Source: a virus. Taken from it: 42,888 bases of DNA. Positions 12,119 through 25,181 of the stretch are shown here, one piece after another. The stretch lies in IMG/VR virus record IMGVR_UViG_3300006033_000045, positions 1 through 42,888 of that record. The stretch is one strand, 5' to 3'. Positions within the stretch are counted from its first letter, which is position 1, and each line of letters starts with the position of its first letter. A program made the translations under genes and the position numbers. Under the pieces are notes generated by a model. It saw nothing but the letters and a program-made list of their open reading frames with translations, searched no databases and had not been told where the DNA came from.

Positions 12119-14188
12119 TTAGAAGAACAATTGCGCGGTTTCGGCTTTCTTATACGCCCCGCAATCGTAAAGCATTTCGACCGCTTCGTTAATATACCAA
12201 TCGTAATTTATATCGTCTGGCAGTTCTTCCGGCAAATCCATTACCGGGCGTGCGCCGTCGGTCTTTCCGACTTTGTTTCCGCTTCCAACGTATGCGATAT
12301 AACCGGCTTCGCCTTTTGGGTAATACCAACGAACGACCTTGCCTAAATATTGGCCGTTCTTTTCGCCGCCGCCTTTAACGTTCTTGACCGATACGAAACG
12401 CCGAATATCGCGGCAAGATTTAATCGTTTTTTCGACTGCGGTTCCATTCTTCAAAAAAGAAATAACCGCGTCGCTGCATACCAACGCTTCGGGATTCTTC
12501 GACAGAATCGAATTAAGGGCCGAACCGCGTTCGCAATAAGCGCCTTTGGTTTTGACGCCCAAGCGTTCGTCTAAGAAGCGCGCTTCGGCGTCGCCGCTTT
12601 CTGTTTTTACTGCGACATACGAATTAACGTCGCGACTATAAACGGCGGCGTATCGCGTTTCTTCGGTCTTGAATGCGGTTCGCTTTTCCCATTCGGCAAT
12701 AATCGCCCTTACTTCGTTATGGCGGTCTTTGTGATACTTTGAAACAATGCCGTCGGTATTGCCGGAAATAACAGAAATGCCCGCTTCTTCCAGCATTTCG
12801 ATAAGCATAAGCAAAACAAGTTGCCCGGTAATCGTTACTTGCAACATAAGTTGCGGCGCGTAAAGCGTTGAATATTTGTTGCCAAGTTTGCCGAAACTTC
12901 CATTAATCGTAATCTTCAAACTGTCGGCAATGGTCTTCCAACGCTTCGCCCCGGCTTTGTCGCCTGCCTTTTTAGCTTTGGCGGCTTCATTCTTGGCATG
13001 AATGCGAGTTTCGACAATAGCGTTATAAACTTGCAAGAACGCTTCGCCAAGGTGCGACGGGAAAAGCCTTTGATTAAGGATAATTCGCGGATAAAACGAT
13101 TCTACGTCGTTATCCGCCAAAATGATTTCGTCGGTCGCTTTATGTGCGGCTTTCTTTTCGGTCGAATGCAAACCGCCCATGCCTAGTTTATAGACGCTGG
13201 AACCGATTTTAACTTTCAGTTTGTCGATTTCTTCCGGCATTATCGGCGACCCTAAACCGTCAAGATAAAACCGCGCGTTCTTGATTACTTCGAACATATC
13301 GCGCAACTGTTGCGAACTGTACGAAATGAAATCCGGGGCGTTGTATTGCAAGACCAAATCGGCGGCTAGTGTGGGCTTGCGCGGGTAATAGCCTAAAACC
13401 TTTTGCAGTTCGCTATTAATCACGGCTTCGGCTACTTGGGCATCCGATTTGCTGCGAAGGTCTATGCCGTATTCTTCCGACATTTCCATTCGCAATTTAA
13501 TTTCGGGCGCAAGTTCGTTAAATAGAAGTTCCGTATTCGCTAAGTCGTTACAACAATACGGGCGCACTATGGCCGCATCTTCCGCCGTCAAAATGTGCGA
13601 TTCTGGAAACGGCAAGTCTTGCATTCGGGCCGCGTGCAAACGCCCGGCGTAAAGCTTCAACGAAGCCGGGTTGGCAGATACGCCGCCATTTACCGGGCAA
13701 ACGTTGAATATGTCGATATGGTTATATTTGCCAATTTGAATTCGATATTTCTTTTCAATATCGAACGGCGTAACTTTTTTCGTTCCGTAGTTCTGCCCGC
13801 TTTTAATAATGAAGTCGGAAGCTTCTTTAAGTTCGTTGCAGCTTAAACCCTTCGCCGCAAGTTCGACCATTGGAATATCGTAAGAATTTGAATTGAAGCC
13901 CACAAGGCAAAAGCGCCAAAGCATCCAACGCAACTTCATTTCGGGAAAGTCGTAATCCGGCGACCGTTCGAACGCGACAAACTTTCCATTCGCCAGACAT
14001 TTAAACGCGACGTAAAAGAAGTTTCGGTAACATTCAACGTCGAAGACGAAGACGCTTCCGGCTGGAACTGCCATTAGTTCTTCGTCTGTCATAAATTCGA
14101 CAGGGCGAAGCATAAGCCGAACCGCCGACGCTATCTTGTCGATTTTCCGATTCGCTTTTGTTTTTATAAAGCCGTTTTCGTCTAACAT
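12119..14188 (-). CDS. Family B DNA polymerase with 3'-5' exonuclease
   Basis: 689-residue replicative DNA polymerase. Exonuclease motifs: Exo I FVFDVECYRN (Asp50, Glu52), Exo II VGFNSNSYDIPM (Asn99, Asp104) and Exo III-like YCCNDLANTE near residue 215. Polymerase motifs: A DNDVESFYPRII near residue 360, B LKITINGSFGKLG near 420, and C SGNTDGIV near 475. Motif C reads NTDG where most family B enzymes have DTDS, so the first metal-ligand Asp is Asn while the second is kept; the rest of the active site looks intact. The ribosome site AAGGAAG lies about ten bases before the ATG and overlaps the end of the clamp-like gene. It is last in the leftward replication operon, which suggests coupling to the clamp. 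Confidence 0.9.
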   Translation of the reverse strand: MLDENGFIKTKANRKIDKIASAVRLMLRPVEFMTDEELMAVPAGSVFVFDVECYRNFFYVAFKCLANGKFVAFERSPDYDFPEMKLRWMLWRFCLVGFNSNSYDIPMVELAAKGLSCNELKEASDFIIKSGQNYGTKKVTPFDIEKKYRIQIGKYNHIDIFNVCPVNGGVSANPASLKLYAGRLHAARMQDLPFPESHILTAEDAAIVRPYCCNDLANTELLFNELAPEIKLRMEMSEEYGIDLRSKSDAQVAEAVINSELQKVLGYYPRKPTLAADLVLQYNAPDFISYSSQQLRDMFEVIKNARFYLDGLGSPIMPEEIDKLKVKIGSSVYKLGMGGLHSTEKKAAHKATDEIILADNDVESFYPRIILNQRLFPSHLGEAFLQVYNAIVETRIHAKNEAAKAKKAGDKAGAKRWKTIADSLKITINGSFGKLGNKYSTLYAPQLMLQVTITGQLVLLMLIEMLEEAGISVISGNTDGIVSKYHKDRHNEVRAIIAEWEKRTAFKTEETRYAAVYSRDVNSYVAVKTESGDAEARFLDERLGVKTKGAYCERGSALNSILSKNPEALVCSDAVISFLKNGTAVEKTIKSCRDIRRFVSVKNVKGGGEKNGQYLGKVVRWYYPKGEAGYIAYVGSGNKVGKTDGARPVMDLPEELPDDINYDWYINEAVEMLYDCGAYKKAETAQLFF

Positions 14189-14203: not shown

Positions 14204-15346
14204 TTAAAACGGCGGAAAGTTATCGTCTTCTTCCGACGACGCTTCGGCATTATGCGGCGTTGCGCTGTTTCTGTCAATACCTGAAAGAACGCCGCGCACG
14301 TTTTCGCCGAAAAAATATGCCTTGTTCGAATCTTCGTCGAAATGAACGTTTTTAAACAACGGTTCGACCATAAGAAGATATTTCGCATTAAAGCCCATGC
14401 TTTCCGGCAAGCCTTCGATTTTATACGTCGAAGCTTCGGCTTCCTGTTCGTTCGAAGCCAACATGCCGTCTTCAAAATAGACAATGCCGCTTCGACTGAA
14501 TGATTCAATCGAACGAACGGCCTTGTAAAATTCTTCGGGAACGGGCCAAGGGTTCAAGCCTTCGCAATTAAAAATGATTCCGTAATTCGGGTATTGTTCG
14601 CCGAAAAGTTGCGTCTTGATAAATGAATCATCTTCGAACCAGAACGTCGCAGACGCCCCGGAATAGCCGAACCCGGTAAGCGCCTTGCCTGCCTTGGCAA
14701 TGGCGACCGCCGACGCCTTGGGAACCAGCATACCGGGCGGAAGGTCGATGCTGTGCCAGTATTCGACCAGAACATGCCCATTCGTCGCGACGGCGCTTCC
14801 TGACTGCAACAGCACGGCGGCAAGGTGCGCATGTTGCGCCCCGTCTGTCGCCAGCGGCAAGACCGCTTCGAAGGCGGCTTTAATGCGGTCGTCGATTACT
14901 GCGCAACGTTCGTCGGGGCCGGTAATTTCGAAGTCGCCGAATGCAACGCACGGAACAAGCGCCTTAAACGCCCCGGAAACGACTGCAAGCGCGTTCGGCG
15001 ATAGTTGGGTAATTGACAGGTCTTCGCCGACCTTGGAAAGCGCGTCGATTAGTTGGTAAGTATGTGGGCACGCGGTCAAGTCTTCTTCGACTTTCGTTGC
15101 GACCGTAAGAACGCCGTTTGACGCTGCGGCCCAATTGCCGGAAATCATGCCGAATTGCTGTTGAACTGTTCCGGCCTTCTTTTGTGCGACGGCAACGAAC
15201 TTCAACGCCGCAAGCAATGACGCCGCAGGGTTTGCGGTTGCCTTTGGCCGTCTGGCGCGATGTTTCTTCGGCTTTGCAGCTTCCGGCGTTGCGGCTGGCG
15301 CTTCGCCGGTCGGAAGCGGAACGTTATTGTCGATTTGCGTTGTCAT
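14204..15346 (-). CDS. Sliding-clamp-like (beta-clamp fold) protein with SSB-type acidic tip
   Basis: 380-residue protein. The middle segment VATNGHVLVEYWHS...LPPGMLVPKAS matches the signature region of DNA polymerase III beta clamps (normally ATDGHRLA...LP...VPRK), and the spacing of alpha/beta units is clamp-like. It follows a basic, Ala-rich N-terminal extension (about 50 residues, KPKKHRARRPKA). It probably holds the adjacent polymerase on DNA. The C-terminus is acidic and ends EEDDNFPPF, very like the tip of bacterial SSB proteins that recruits partner enzymes. The ATG at 15346 is preferred because AAGGGG lies seven bases upstream; a TTG at 15367 could add seven residues. It overlaps the upstream gene by 23 bases. 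Confidence 0.7.
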   Translation of the reverse strand: MTTQIDNNVPLPTGEAPAATPEAAKPKKHRARRPKATANPAASLLAALKFVAVAQKKAGTVQQQFGMISGNWAAASNGVLTVATKVEEDLTACPHTYQLIDALSKVGEDLSITQLSPNALAVVSGAFKALVPCVAFGDFEITGPDERCAVIDDRIKAAFEAVLPLATDGAQHAHLAAVLLQSGSAVATNGHVLVEYWHSIDLPPGMLVPKASAVAIAKAGKALTGFGYSGASATFWFEDDSFIKTQLFGEQYPNYGIIFNCEGLNPWPVPEEFYKAVRSIESFSRSGIVYFEDGMLASNEQEAEASTYKIEGLPESMGFNAKYLLMVEPLFKNVHFDEDSNKAYFFGENVRGVLSGIDRNSATPHNAEASSEEDDNFPPF

Positions 15347-15569: not shown

Positions 15570-17225
15570 TCACCATTCAGCGGATAAGATTTCGGGATAT
15601 TTCTTGTTTGTCCATACCCGAATGCGGGAAGGAACGCGCAATTCGGAAACGCGGCGCAACGCTTCGTAAGTCGTAACGGGCGGGTCTTCGTAATGGCGTT
15701 GTCGCCACCAATCGCGCGCCCGCTTGCCCGCAAGGCCGGGATGTTCAAGGCAAAGCCATTCATTGAACATTTGAAAGCCGCAGAAATACGAAACCTTAAT
15801 CGAAGGCGGCGAAGTAAGAATGCCGCTTGCATCGCGCTTTTCGTGCAAGTTGTAAATAATCTTTTGCACGTTGAAATAATCAACTATTGGCGCATCTGAC
15901 CGCAGAACGTCGCCGCCGAATGAATTTGCAAACAACTTCGTTTCGAAGCTAAATTCGGTTCCGCAGTTTATACAATGACGCGCCGAAGCATGGTTATAAA
16001 CGCCGCAGTTTTCGCAGATACGAACCGGCGCGTCGCCGGGCGCACCTTTGCCGGGCTTGCGCGGTTTTACCGGGTCATTTATCGGCCCCAAGCGTTTAAC
16101 GTTTCCGGCGAAATCAAGGAACAAACAATTTTCTTTGTTCGTAGCTGGCGACGGTCTGGTTCCGCGCCCGCCCTTTTGAACGTGTTTGCCCGGCGACATA
16201 GTAGGCTGAAAGTCGGCGATAAGGTCAATCGCCGGGAAGTCGTAACCCGTCGTATATTTGTTCATGCCCACAAGTGCGCGATATTCGCCAGCTTCGAAAG
16301 CCGCCATACGAATATCGTTTTCTTTTTCGGTTAATTTCGAATGGCTGGCAATGGCCGGAATGCCAAACGAATTTAACATGGCCGCGATATGTTCGGCATT
16401 CTTTACGCCAGCGGCGAAGATAAGCCAATGGTTACGGTCGTATGCAAGTTCGCAAGTTTCCTTCAAACCTTCGTAAATGACTTTTTCGGCTTCGTCTTCG
16501 GCTTGTTTGCCGTTGAAATCGCCGTTTGAAAGATTAAGGTTCGACGTATCAATTTTCGTTGCAGTTGGGCGCGAAATCAACGGCGACAAATAGCCTTCGG
16601 CGATAAGCCGGTTAAAGGCTTCGATTCCTGTTATGTCGTAACAAACATCGGTAAAAATGCCGTCGTCTTCGGTAATCATGCCTTGTTTAAGACGGTAAGG
16701 CGTCGCCGTGAATCCAATAACCTTTAAGTTCGGGTTAATCTTTTTCAGTTCGGCGATAATGTATTGGTATTGGGTATCTTCCGAAGGGCTTAACAAATGC
16801 GCTTCGTCGATAATCAACAAATCGCGCCAGCCAAAATGCCTTAAATGCGGCGGCTTATTGTCGCCAGCTTCAAGCGATTTTTTAATGGCTGGTGCGACCG
16901 ATTGAACGCCGCCGAACACGATTGGCATAATCATTTCGCGGCTATTCAGGCCAGCGGAATAAATGCCCATTGGTGCGACAGGCCAAACCGACAAAAGCTT
17001 TTCGGCGTTTTGCGAAATCAACTTTTTAACGTGCGTAAGCATCATTATTCGTTGATTCGGCCAATATTCGAAAATCTTACGAATGAAGTTCGCAATAACG
17101 ACCGATTTTCCGGTTCCGGTCGGCATAGCGACGACAGGGTTTCCGACCCCGCCGCGCTGGAAATAATCGAATATTGCGTATTCCGCTTCGTCTTGATACC
17201 AGCGGTTCGCATAAATACTAGACAT
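15570..17225 (-). CDS. SF2 DEAH-type helicase with zinc ribbon
   Basis: 551-residue superfamily 2 helicase. Motif I MPTGTGKSVV near residue 35, motif II LIIDEAHLL near 135, motif III GFTATPYR near 175, helicase C-terminal domain with IFAAGVKNAEHIAAML, and motif VI QKGGRGTRP near 360. A four-cysteine zinc ribbon follows (CENCGVYNHASARHCINCGT, near residue 400), then a C-terminal region of about 130 residues. It probably unwinds or remodels DNA in replication or recombination, acting with the adjacent nuclease gene, whose end overlaps its start by eight bases. It is similar in layout to phage UvsW/RecQ-like helicases but not assignable to one. Confidence 0.88.
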   Translation of the reverse strand: MSSIYANRWYQDEAEYAIFDYFQRGGVGNPVVAMPTGTGKSVVIANFIRKIFEYWPNQRIMMLTHVKKLISQNAEKLLSVWPVAPMGIYSAGLNSREMIMPIVFGGVQSVAPAIKKSLEAGDNKPPHLRHFGWRDLLIIDEAHLLSPSEDTQYQYIIAELKKINPNLKVIGFTATPYRLKQGMITEDDGIFTDVCYDITGIEAFNRLIAEGYLSPLISRPTATKIDTSNLNLSNGDFNGKQAEDEAEKVIYEGLKETCELAYDRNHWLIFAAGVKNAEHIAAMLNSFGIPAIASHSKLTEKENDIRMAAFEAGEYRALVGMNKYTTGYDFPAIDLIADFQPTMSPGKHVQKGGRGTRPSPATNKENCLFLDFAGNVKRLGPINDPVKPRKPGKGAPGDAPVRICENCGVYNHASARHCINCGTEFSFETKLFANSFGGDVLRSDAPIVDYFNVQKIIYNLHEKRDASGILTSPPSIKVSYFCGFQMFNEWLCLEHPGLAGKRARDWWRQRHYEDPPVTTYEALRRVSELRVPSRIRVWTNKKYPEILSAEW

Positions 17226-18189
17226 TTTGCGTTATTGCCTTATATGAAGGGCAGGCCGTCGGGATAAATTCTTTCGGAATGTTCCCGTTATGAACTTCGC
17301 AAAACCATTCGGCGTTTTCAACAGGCCGGGCAAAGGCGCAGCTTCGGCAATTGACTTCAACGACCGCGCCTTTATGGCAAACGTCCTTCAAGTGGCAATA
17401 TCCGCATTTGTGAAACGTCGGATTATCCGAAAGACGCACGGGCGGCGTTTGCGACAAAATGATTTGTTCGGCTTTCATAATCATTTGTTCGCCCAAGCCG
17501 TGATTGAGTTTCACGACTTCAACATGCAACGAATCGTCGTTCTTGTTAATATTCAAATAAACGCAATATCGGAAATTGTATTTCTTGCCATACGTTGAAG
17601 TTTGCGCGAAATGTTCCGGCTTTGCAATTGGCATTCCGTCGTCTGCCAGCTTGTTAAAACCCGCGCCGGTTCCGTTGGTCTTGAATTCCAGCAAAACGGG
17701 TTCTTCGATGCCGTAGCGTTCGGGCAAAACTGCGATGCCGTCAAGCGACCCGCCGAAGTGCCCCATAACGTCGGAAATCCTGTATTGTGGGTATTCGCCT
17801 TTTTCGTTCGGCGCTTCGTCGCGATTTTCGAACCAAACTTTAAAGCCGATTCCTTCCAGCCATTCGACGAAACGCGCTTCTTCCCGGTGCCCACGATTAA
17901 ACAAACGTTGTTGCCGCCCTGTCGTCTTTTCATGCAAACACCAGCGGAAGACGTACCAAAGATAACGCTTACATTCGCGACCAATCAACGACGCGCCAAG
18001 GTGCGAACGGTGCCCGCCGTCGTAAGTGCGAACGCAATATTCGTCGATTTCTTCAAGAATGCGCTTTGCAAGGGCTTTTGATATGCCGGGCGAATCCAAA
18101 TTAACGCCTTGTTTTCCGTCGTTTGATTTCTTCGGCTGTTCGGCGCTGTTCGTTTTGTTCGCGTTCGTATTGCTTTCTTTGCTTGACAT
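17218..18189 (-). CDS. PD-(D/E)XK nuclease, Cas4/AddB-like with cysteine cluster
   Basis: 323-residue nuclease. The PD-(D/E)XK core is visible as GGSLDGIA (Asp, near residue 140) and VLLEFKTNG (Glu-x-Lys, near 160), with a downstream Gln/Tyr helix (FAQTSTYGKKY). A Cys in IGRECKRYLWY (near residue 72) plus CGYCHLKDVC (near 265) give the four-cysteine arrangement of 4Fe-4S Cas4/AddB exonucleases. A second Cys/His group follows (CRSCAFARP...FCEVHNG...ACPSY). It probably resects DNA ends for recombination with the Sak4-like ATPase and helicase. The ribosome site AAGGAAAAA precedes the ATG. It overlaps the DUF3268 gene by 89 bases in another frame. Confidence 0.78.
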   Translation of the reverse strand: MSSKESNTNANKTNSAEQPKKSNDGKQGVNLDSPGISKALAKRILEEIDEYCVRTYDGGHRSHLGASLIGRECKRYLWYVFRWCLHEKTTGRQQRLFNRGHREEARFVEWLEGIGFKVWFENRDEAPNEKGEYPQYRISDVMGHFGGSLDGIAVLPERYGIEEPVLLEFKTNGTGAGFNKLADDGMPIAKPEHFAQTSTYGKKYNFRYCVYLNINKNDDSLHVEVVKLNHGLGEQMIMKAEQIILSQTPPVRLSDNPTFHKCGYCHLKDVCHKGAVVEVNCRSCAFARPVENAEWFCEVHNGNIPKEFIPTACPSYKAITQNV

Positions 18190-18684: not shown

Positions 18685-19470
18685 TTAACGTTGGCCCCAA
18701 GGTGCGCCGCCTGCCGGTGCCCCGCCGCCCTGTTGCCAGCCGCCCGCCTGTTGGGCCGGTTGCTGCGCGGGCTGTTGGGCCGGTGCGCCCTGACCCCAAG
18801 CCGGGGCGGCATTGCCAGCCGGTGCGCCTTGCGGTTGCTGTTGGGCAGGCTGACCGCCGCCCCATGCTGGCGCGTTGCCCTGCGGCTGCGCTGCGGGCTG
18901 TTGCGCGGGTTGCTGTTGCCCGCCCCATGCGGCCCCGCCTTGGGGTTGCTGCGGCTGTTGGGCGGGCTGTTGCTGACCGAAGCCGCCTTGGGCTGCGGGT
19001 TGCTGTTGCGGCTGCGCAGCCGGTGCGCCTTGCCCTGCCTTGCCGGGTTCGTGGCCGTTAATGTCGAACACCTTTTTAACTTCGGTGTAACCCTTCGCTT
19101 CGGGATTGCTGCCGGGTTCGTGGCCCTTTTGAAAGCCGACTTCGATAATAAACGGGATATTGTGCATTTGCGCCGAATCTTGCACGTTGAACACGCCGAT
19201 AACGTGGCAAATCGCGGAAAGCTGGCGATGTGCAATTTCTGCCGTTTGCGGGTTGGAATGGTACAGATTCAGGCGATAAGCGCCGGTCGTTCCCATTTGC
19301 GGGCCGTCAATAAGCTTCAAATTCAATTGAAGATAACCGCCGTCGTTCGCCTTGTTTGCCTTCACTTCGGAAGATTCGACGATGACCGGATGCCGACCGA
19401 CGGGCAGGCTTCCGCCGCCTTGGGTCGGGTCGAATTGTTGTGCGTTGAACGCTTGCAAAAGTTTTGCCAT
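18685..19470 (-). CDS. DUF669 ssDNA-binding-like protein with long Gln/Pro/Gly/Ala tail
   Basis: 261-residue protein. Residues 1-125 match the DUF669 family: LPVGRHPVIVESSEVK, GGYLQLNLKLIDGP, then AHRQLSAICHVIGV and FIIEVGF. DUF669 proteins are regarded as phage single-strand DNA-binding proteins. From about residue 135 to the end the sequence is low-complexity (Gln, Pro, Gly, Ala with Trp), a disordered tail about as long as the folded part. It ends APWGQR and lacks the acidic Asp-Asp-x-Pro-Phe tip of bacterial SSB. It has its own good promoter (19532-19559) and its own terminator, consistent with high expression. The tail-coding DNA is GC-rich. Confidence 0.85.
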   Translation of the reverse strand: MAKLLQAFNAQQFDPTQGGGSLPVGRHPVIVESSEVKANKANDGGYLQLNLKLIDGPQMGTTGAYRLNLYHSNPQTAEIAHRQLSAICHVIGVFNVQDSAQMHNIPFIIEVGFQKGHEPGSNPEAKGYTEVKKVFDINGHEPGKAGQGAPAAQPQQQPAAQGGFGQQQPAQQPQQPQGGAAWGGQQQPAQQPAAQPQGNAPAWGGGQPAQQQPQGAPAGNAAPAWGQGAPAQQPAQQPAQQAGGWQQGGGAPAGGAPWGQR

Positions 19471-24161: not shown

Positions 24162-25181
24162 ATGAAAGTTCTTAGTTTGTTTGACGGAATGTCGTGCGGG
24201 CAAATTGCGTTGCAAAAAGCCGGTATTGCATATTCTGATTACTTTGCATCGGAAATTGAAAAAGCCCCGATGCAAGTCGCAAAAGCAAATTTCCCAAACA
24301 TGCACCACATTGGTGACGTTCGTTTGCTGAATGTGCCTGAAAATTTGCAGATTGATTTGCTTATTGGCGGTTCGCCTTGTCAATCGTTTTCGTTTGCAGG
24401 AAAACGCAACGGCATGACAACAAAATGCGAACTTGAAATTAAAACACTTGGTGAATATTTGAAATTAAAAGAAGAAGGCTTCGAATTTGAAGGGCAGTCT
24501 TATTTGTTTTGGGAATACATGCGATTGGCTTATCAGGCAAAGCCGAAATGGTTTTTACTTGAAAATGTAACGATGGATGCAAAATGGGAAGCTATTATTT
24601 CGGAAGCTTTAAACTGCAAACCAGTTTTTATAAATTCCAATTCTGTTTCAGCACAAAACAGAAAGCGCCTTTATTGGACAAACATTCCTTTCAATATGTC
24701 TTTTGCTGAAAAAGAAAGCGAATTGCAATTGGGTGATATTGTTGAAGAAGAAAACATAGATTTCCAACTAACTTCAACAATTGAATTTAAAAAGCTAAAA
24801 GCTCAATTGGAACAAACTTTTATTGATGGCTTGTTGTTTGAACATATTGAAAAAAATGTTTGGACTGAAAGAGTTTTCAAGAAAGATAGAAACACGTTAG
24901 CTTATCGAAAATTGTTTAGTCAGCTAAAAAGCCTTTACGACAAATCAGGATGTTTGACAACCAGCGGTCAAAATTTCAGCAACAGCGGTTCAACAAACAT
25001 TGTATTTATTACAAAAGAAGGTAAGTTAAACATTCGCCCTTTGAATCCAACAGAATGCGAACGTTTGCAAACAGTGCCAGACAATTACACCAAAGGGGTT
25101 TCCAGAAACAAACGAATTGCAATGCTAGGAAACGGCTGGACTGTCGATGTTATTGCAAACATTTTCAAAGGCATTTCTTAA
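24162..25181 (+). CDS. DNA cytosine-C5 methyltransferase
   Basis: 339-residue m5C methyltransferase with all core motifs: I LSLFDGMSCGQIALQ near residue 5, IV GGSPCQSFSFAG near 70 (catalytic Cys in PCQ), VI FLLENVT near 128, VIII QNRKRLYW near 160, IX RPLNPTECERLQTVP near 292, and X LGNGWTVDVIANIF near the end. The target-recognition region between VIII and IX (about residues 180-285) is of ordinary size. The DNA is far more AT-rich than its neighbours and favours AAA, ATT and TTT codons, which indicates transfer from an AT-rich donor. No restriction enzyme adjoins it, so it is an orphan methylase, probably protecting against host restriction. It is followed by its own terminator. Confidence 0.92.
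   Translation: MKVLSLFDGMSCGQIALQKAGIAYSDYFASEIEKAPMQVAKANFPNMHHIGDVRLLNVPENLQIDLLIGGSPCQSFSFAGKRNGMTTKCELEIKTLGEYLKLKEEGFEFEGQSYLFWEYMRLAYQAKPKWFLLENVTMDAKWEAIISEALNCKPVFINSNSVSAQNRKRLYWTNIPFNMSFAEKESELQLGDIVEEENIDFQLTSTIEFKKLKAQLEQTFIDGLLFEHIEKNVWTERVFKKDRNTLAYRKLFSQLKSLYDKSGCLTTSGQNFSNSGSTNIVFITKEGKLNIRPLNPTECERLQTVPDNYTKGVSRNKRIAMLGNGWTVDVIANIFKGIS

Follow-up and report, generated by a model that had tools for sequence, protein, structure and literature searches.

In the phages related to the virus analysed here, a C-terminal tip of the type found in bacterial SSB shows a near-exclusive distribution over three proteins, namely the sliding clamp, a small protein with four conserved cysteines (PHROG 23504, hereafter the Cys4 protein) and a RadD-like helicase. 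Judging from the aligned C-termini, the clamp of this virus bears a diverged version of the tip that is conserved in its clade. The open-access literature searched yielded no description of a sliding clamp with a tip of this type; the subscription literature lies mostly outside this search, and priority is not established.

The window clamp and its C-terminus

The window, that is, the whole stretch of DNA analysed, is a 42,888-base IMG/VR virus record in which the replication genes are arranged as in Septimatrevirus and its relatives. The relevant features are as follows:

12119..14188, minus strand: B-family DNA polymerase (PHROG 1252) with the end AETAQLFF, which resembles a C-terminal clamp-binding motif
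14204..15346, minus strand: predicted phage beta-type sliding clamp, 380 aa (PHROG 947, AlphaFold, Foldseek)
14207..14263, minus strand: disordered C-terminal tail of the clamp, residues 362-380 (pLDDT <50), variable in sequence and length among relatives
14207..14233, minus strand: SSB-type tip EEDDNFPPF, residues 372-380, which by its sequence and its relatives appears to be a diverged form of the DDIPF of the clade
15570..17225, minus strand: RadD-like helicase (RadD match, E 1.2e-46)
17218..18189, minus strand: Cas4-domain exonuclease (PHROG 1990), with a C-terminal Cys module faintly like the Cys4 tip protein of relatives
18685..19470, minus strand: DUF669 SSB (PHROG 6015) with an OB fold and a tail that ends in GGAPWGQR, with no acidic tip (PHROG, structural model, C-terminus)

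In addition, a match to the PHROG 116 DNA methyltransferase is located at 24162-25181, downstream of the primase.

The clamp open reading frame (ATG at 15346, TAA at 14204-14206) encodes a protein with the C-terminal sequence SSEEDDNFPPF and matches PHROG 947 (DNA polymerase processivity factor) at 1.4e-70. A Pfam search of this ORF gave no convincing match; a profile built from 19 clamp relatives reached bacterial DnaN at 2.3e-5. The AlphaFold model (mean pLDDT 84.4, pTM 0.78), in which residues 1-36 and 362-380 are disordered, matches bacterial DnaN in Foldseek with an E-value of 8.4e-19, probability of 1.00 and TM score of 0.70 over 367 alignment columns that span all three domains. The product is thus predicted to adopt the fold of a phage beta-type sliding clamp, as the first-pass annotation had proposed, and would putatively form a ring around DNA. 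The possibility that this gene itself encodes an SSB is ruled out by the clamp fold, the OB fold being found instead in the DUF669 neighbour. The window protein shares with bacterial DnaN the full-length three-domain fold and an adjacent polymerase with a clamp-binding-like end but differs in its low identity (approximately 15-19%) and in its disordered tail, which ends in an SSB-type tip. The polymerases of the window (C-terminus at 12119-12140) and of many relatives end in QLxFF, SLFF or ISFF, all clamp-binding-like. The nearest named relative of the clamp is that of Pseudomonas phage LPPA15 (88.7%), followed by the Septimatrevirus clamps (62-67%). Among bacterial genomes, a search for clamp homologues yielded 73 pattern matches and 0 confirmed relatives, so that prophage context is uninformative.

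Of the 583 stop-to-stop window ORFs with a length of 40 aa or more, the clamp alone combines an acidic run with P-F at the very C-terminus, and a scan of the other window proteins revealed no tip. Nearly every clamp of the same clade has a tail of 10 to 64 residues beyond the core that ends in D/E-I-P-F, which bears out the expectation that the tip would be conserved in homologs. Among the 21 tip-bearing representatives at 90% identity, Ile and Pro never vary, and the sole substitution of Phe is a Tyr; the codons (ATA/ATT/ATC, CCG/CCA/CCT and TTT/TTC) are free at the third position, and the tip stays constant behind linkers of 10 to 64 residues with widely variable sequences. This combination of a variable, disordered linker with a conserved tip is the layout of SSB-Ct, and several of the clamp tips (DMDDDIPF) are close to the SSB-Ct of Escherichia coli itself, WMDFDDDIPF (PMC10238739). 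Most relatives of the window clamp end in the canonical (D/E)(D/E)IPF, including its sisters L013 and L014; the window clamp and that of L002, a 97% identical contig from another sample, have DDNFPPF where the clade has DDIPF. The end EEDDNFPPF, read correctly in the first-pass annotation, retains the acidic residues and P-F of an SSB-type tip and lacks I/L at position -3, the clade itself having D/E-I-P-F. Compared with bacterial SSB-Ct, the clade consensus has the same acids and I-P-F at the exact C-terminus after a variable linker but is located on a clamp rather than on a coater of ssDNA, and in the window it takes the form NFPPF. The clamps of the Septimatrevirus phages Kakheti25 and PaMx42 and of Kilunavirus KL1, which bear no annotation in their records beyond replicative clamp or processivity factor, resemble that of the window in PHROG assignment (947), gene order and the presence of the tip, but their tips are the canonical DDIPF. 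Clamps without a tip stop 1 to 5 residues past the core, with the exception of L084, the tail of which ends in DDISV in place of DDIPF and was taken to be a decayed or misread tip.

The DUF669 protein of the window matches PHROG 6015 at 2e-87, and its OB-fold model has the ssDNA-binding protein PrgE as the best match (E 1e-5). In agreement with the first-pass annotation, it lacks the tip and ends in a Gln/Pro/Gly/Ala tail (...GGAPWGQR); an acidic-aromatic C-terminal tip was found in 0 of 45 relatives. In 41 of these 45, the protein ends near a Trp, typically in APWGQR or PAWGQ, a conserved motif that may be a docking end in its own right.

Alternative carriers of the tip

A scan of C-termini showed that most related genomes with a tip-less clamp contain a small ORF ending in DIPF, usually located between the helicase and the clamp. 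These ORFs comprise a single family, in which four Cys and a Pro-Pro are invariant and the I-P-F end is nearly so; the family corresponds to PHROG 23504 (approximately 75 aa, function not annotated), with matches that extend to the last profile position. The four conserved Cys suggest a putative zinc module. The gene commonly adjoins the RadD-like helicase gene, often just before the clamp. Cys4 proteins and tipped helicases are encoded, among other sites, at the following positions:

L036:6346-6564, L038:6393-6620, L073:6471-6704 and others: Cys4 tip proteins (PHROG 23504), SSB-type tip at the C-terminus
L044:2-613, L089:998-2827, L090:568-2343: tipped helicases of the Queuovirinae (MiCath, HD01 and NP1)

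Whole-genome searches detected the Cys4 family in genomes with tip-less clamps; it is absent from tip-on-clamp genomes, save for L072, which has both. Marginal matches in Kakheti25 and PSV3 (E ~0.002) run through a stop codon and fall short of the tip. In the window, neither the family alignment nor the PHROG model gave a match to PHROG 23504, the family that ends in the tip seen on the clamps of the clade. The ORF set was initially chosen by the tip, and tip-less members might have been missed at that stage; later family searches found none. The Cys4 tip gene of Pseudomonas phage Baskent_P4_1 (L100:2468-2668) was overlooked by its annotation. The C-terminal module of the Cas4-domain exonuclease was considered as an origin of the Cys4 carrier, but the similarity (7.4e-6 for one member, otherwise weak; hhalign probability 42%) makes it a lead only.

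At the DNA level, a word encoding D-I-P-F-stop had 19 matches in 34 related genomes, at most one per genome, at the places where either the clamp gene or the small Cys4 gene terminates; the same word read backwards gave 0 matches in these genomes. Among 44 representatives, 20 have the tip on the clamp only, 15 on the Cys4 protein only, 1 on both and 8 on neither (Fisher p = 2.8e-5). The last eight include two with a tip on the helicase, one with a decayed tip, three partial contigs and two near-complete tip-less genomes. No ORF of Acinetobacter phage D0 or of record G014 (near-complete) has a recognisable tip, so the tip is dispensable in these two. Within the Queuovirinae, the tip alternates between the Cys4 protein and the helicase: the helicases of MiCath and NP1 end in DDDIPF, that of HD01 in EDDLPF and that of CAjan in a looser DYVPF, all four in genomes that lack the Cys4 protein; PaP007, BP15 and RHEph05 have the Cys4 protein, as do BA3 and Baskent_P4_1, in which the helicase is tip-less. 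In Vibrio phages, an overlap in the annotation hinted at a fusion of the Cys4 carrier to the helicase; the genes merely overlap. An independent-pairs test of the carrier swap, with 4-5 events, was not significant, and given the small number of events, the exclusivity of the carriers is to be taken as a pattern and not as proof.

A maximum-likelihood tree was built from 58 clamp cores, with the tail excluded and PSV3 (L042), the replication genes of which are broken in its record, left out. In this tree, all tip-on-clamp genomes except L072 form one clade (support 99/99), which also includes four clamps without a tail (L018, L019, L020 and L023) and the clamp that ends in DDISV. Langgrundblatt1 (L036), a Cys4-protein phage, adjoins this clade, and the other Cys4-protein phages lie outside it; the relatives outside the clade of the window clamp have a clamp without tail and tip. 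Because the tip-on-clamp phages nest within a grade of Cys4-protein phages, the clamp seems to have replaced the Cys4 protein as the carrier, and the simplest reading of the tree is that an ancestor with the Cys4 protein gained the clamp tip and lost the small gene. The first-pass annotation had suggested that the clamp received its tip from the phage SSB; this origin is not upheld, given that none of the 45 DUF669 SSBs is tipped and that the tip-on-clamp phages are nested among those with the Cys4 protein.

Possible functions of the tip

We consider the chances about even that the tip of the clamp tail is an SSB-type docking tip that draws in host SSB-binding proteins, the partners being predicted. 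Under this model, the phage SSB would coat ssDNA without recruiting host SSB-binding proteins, and a single host-type SSB tip would be displayed instead by another protein of the phage replication cluster; flexible tips on the clamp ring would keep the SSB-binding proteins of the host at the primer-template junction. The annotated lack of a clamp loader gene holds up: the Pfam model of the clamp-loader ATPase, DNA_pol3_delta2, matched 13 of 14 control genomes and none of 10 phages, the window among them, and generic AAA models gave nothing above the cut-off in the ten phages. With no loader detected on the phage side, the host clamp-loader subunit chi would be the most useful target; PriA, RecO, ExoI, RecQ and others are possible as well. 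In E. coli, chi connects the SSB tail with the clamp loader; when chi is missing, the clamp closes about five-fold more slowly on DNA coated with SSB (PMC13213242). A tip-less SSB coat would cost the phage this link, which a clamp-borne tip would re-establish where it is needed; the NFPPF of the window would then be a weaker or retuned tip. Counted against docking are the two near-complete genomes in which no tip is recognisable, the off-consensus tip of the window and the small number of independent events on which the swap rests, and among the SSB-binding proteins, nothing points to chi specifically.

It is also conceivable, albeit rather unlikely, that the tip binds a phage protein (the RadD-like helicase, the primase, the Cas4 exonuclease or Sak4) and couples it to the clamp. 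The helicase is the obvious candidate in that it adjoins the clamp and resembles RadD, the E. coli form of which uses three Arg residues to bind SSB-Ct (PMC10238739). However, a RadD-type pocket for SSB-Ct is not borne out in the phage helicases: a basic residue is present throughout at one of the three Arg positions only, and the other two are mostly non-basic. A basic residue beside the position of RadD Arg21 is present in most helicases of tip-on-clamp genomes and absent from tip-less genomes; it thus tracks the clamp tip, but this correlation is confounded by ancestry. Furthermore, the helicase is itself tipped in part of the Queuovirinae, and the tip keeps to the consensus of host SSB, from which a contact among phage proteins alone could drift freely.

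An improbable variant of host binding is that the tip serves as a decoy that ties up SSB-binding proteins of the host, such as nucleases, helicases and SSB-watching defense sensors, away from the phage DNA. Interchangeable carriers fit this explanation, and a tip-less phage SSB would itself not draw such proteins; however, the genes of all three carriers lie in the replication cluster and two of the proteins work at DNA, places in which a decoy need not be. Finally, acidic C-terminal tails are common among DNA-binding proteins, and the tail could be a non-specific acidic end that tunes, for example, solubility or DNA contacts and has no docking role. The NFPPF of the window and the loss of the tail in a few relatives are compatible with such an end, but the near invariance of the terminal Ile-Pro-Phe despite linkers that vary in sequence and length, and the recurrence of the tip as the last residues of two unrelated proteins, make it very unlikely.

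To return to docking, a more general version, which is possible but which we hold only tentatively, casts the docking tip of SSB as a transferable module: the SSB of the phage would only coat, and one host-mimicking tip on an exchangeable replication-associated protein (the Cys4 adaptor, the clamp or the helicase) would draw SSB-binding host machines, among them the clamp loader, to the phage fork. The SSB tip is the main recruiting address of the bacterial cell at single-stranded DNA, and these phages appear to have uncoupled this summoning tag from DNA coating. The alternation among clamp, small protein and helicase provides natural swap experiments on the function of the tip, and for PHROG 23504, it yields a first functional hypothesis. 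The finding also bears on how the clamp reaches DNA in phages that encode a clamp and a polymerase but no recognisable loader; if the docking model is true, the clamp itself calls in the loader that it needs.
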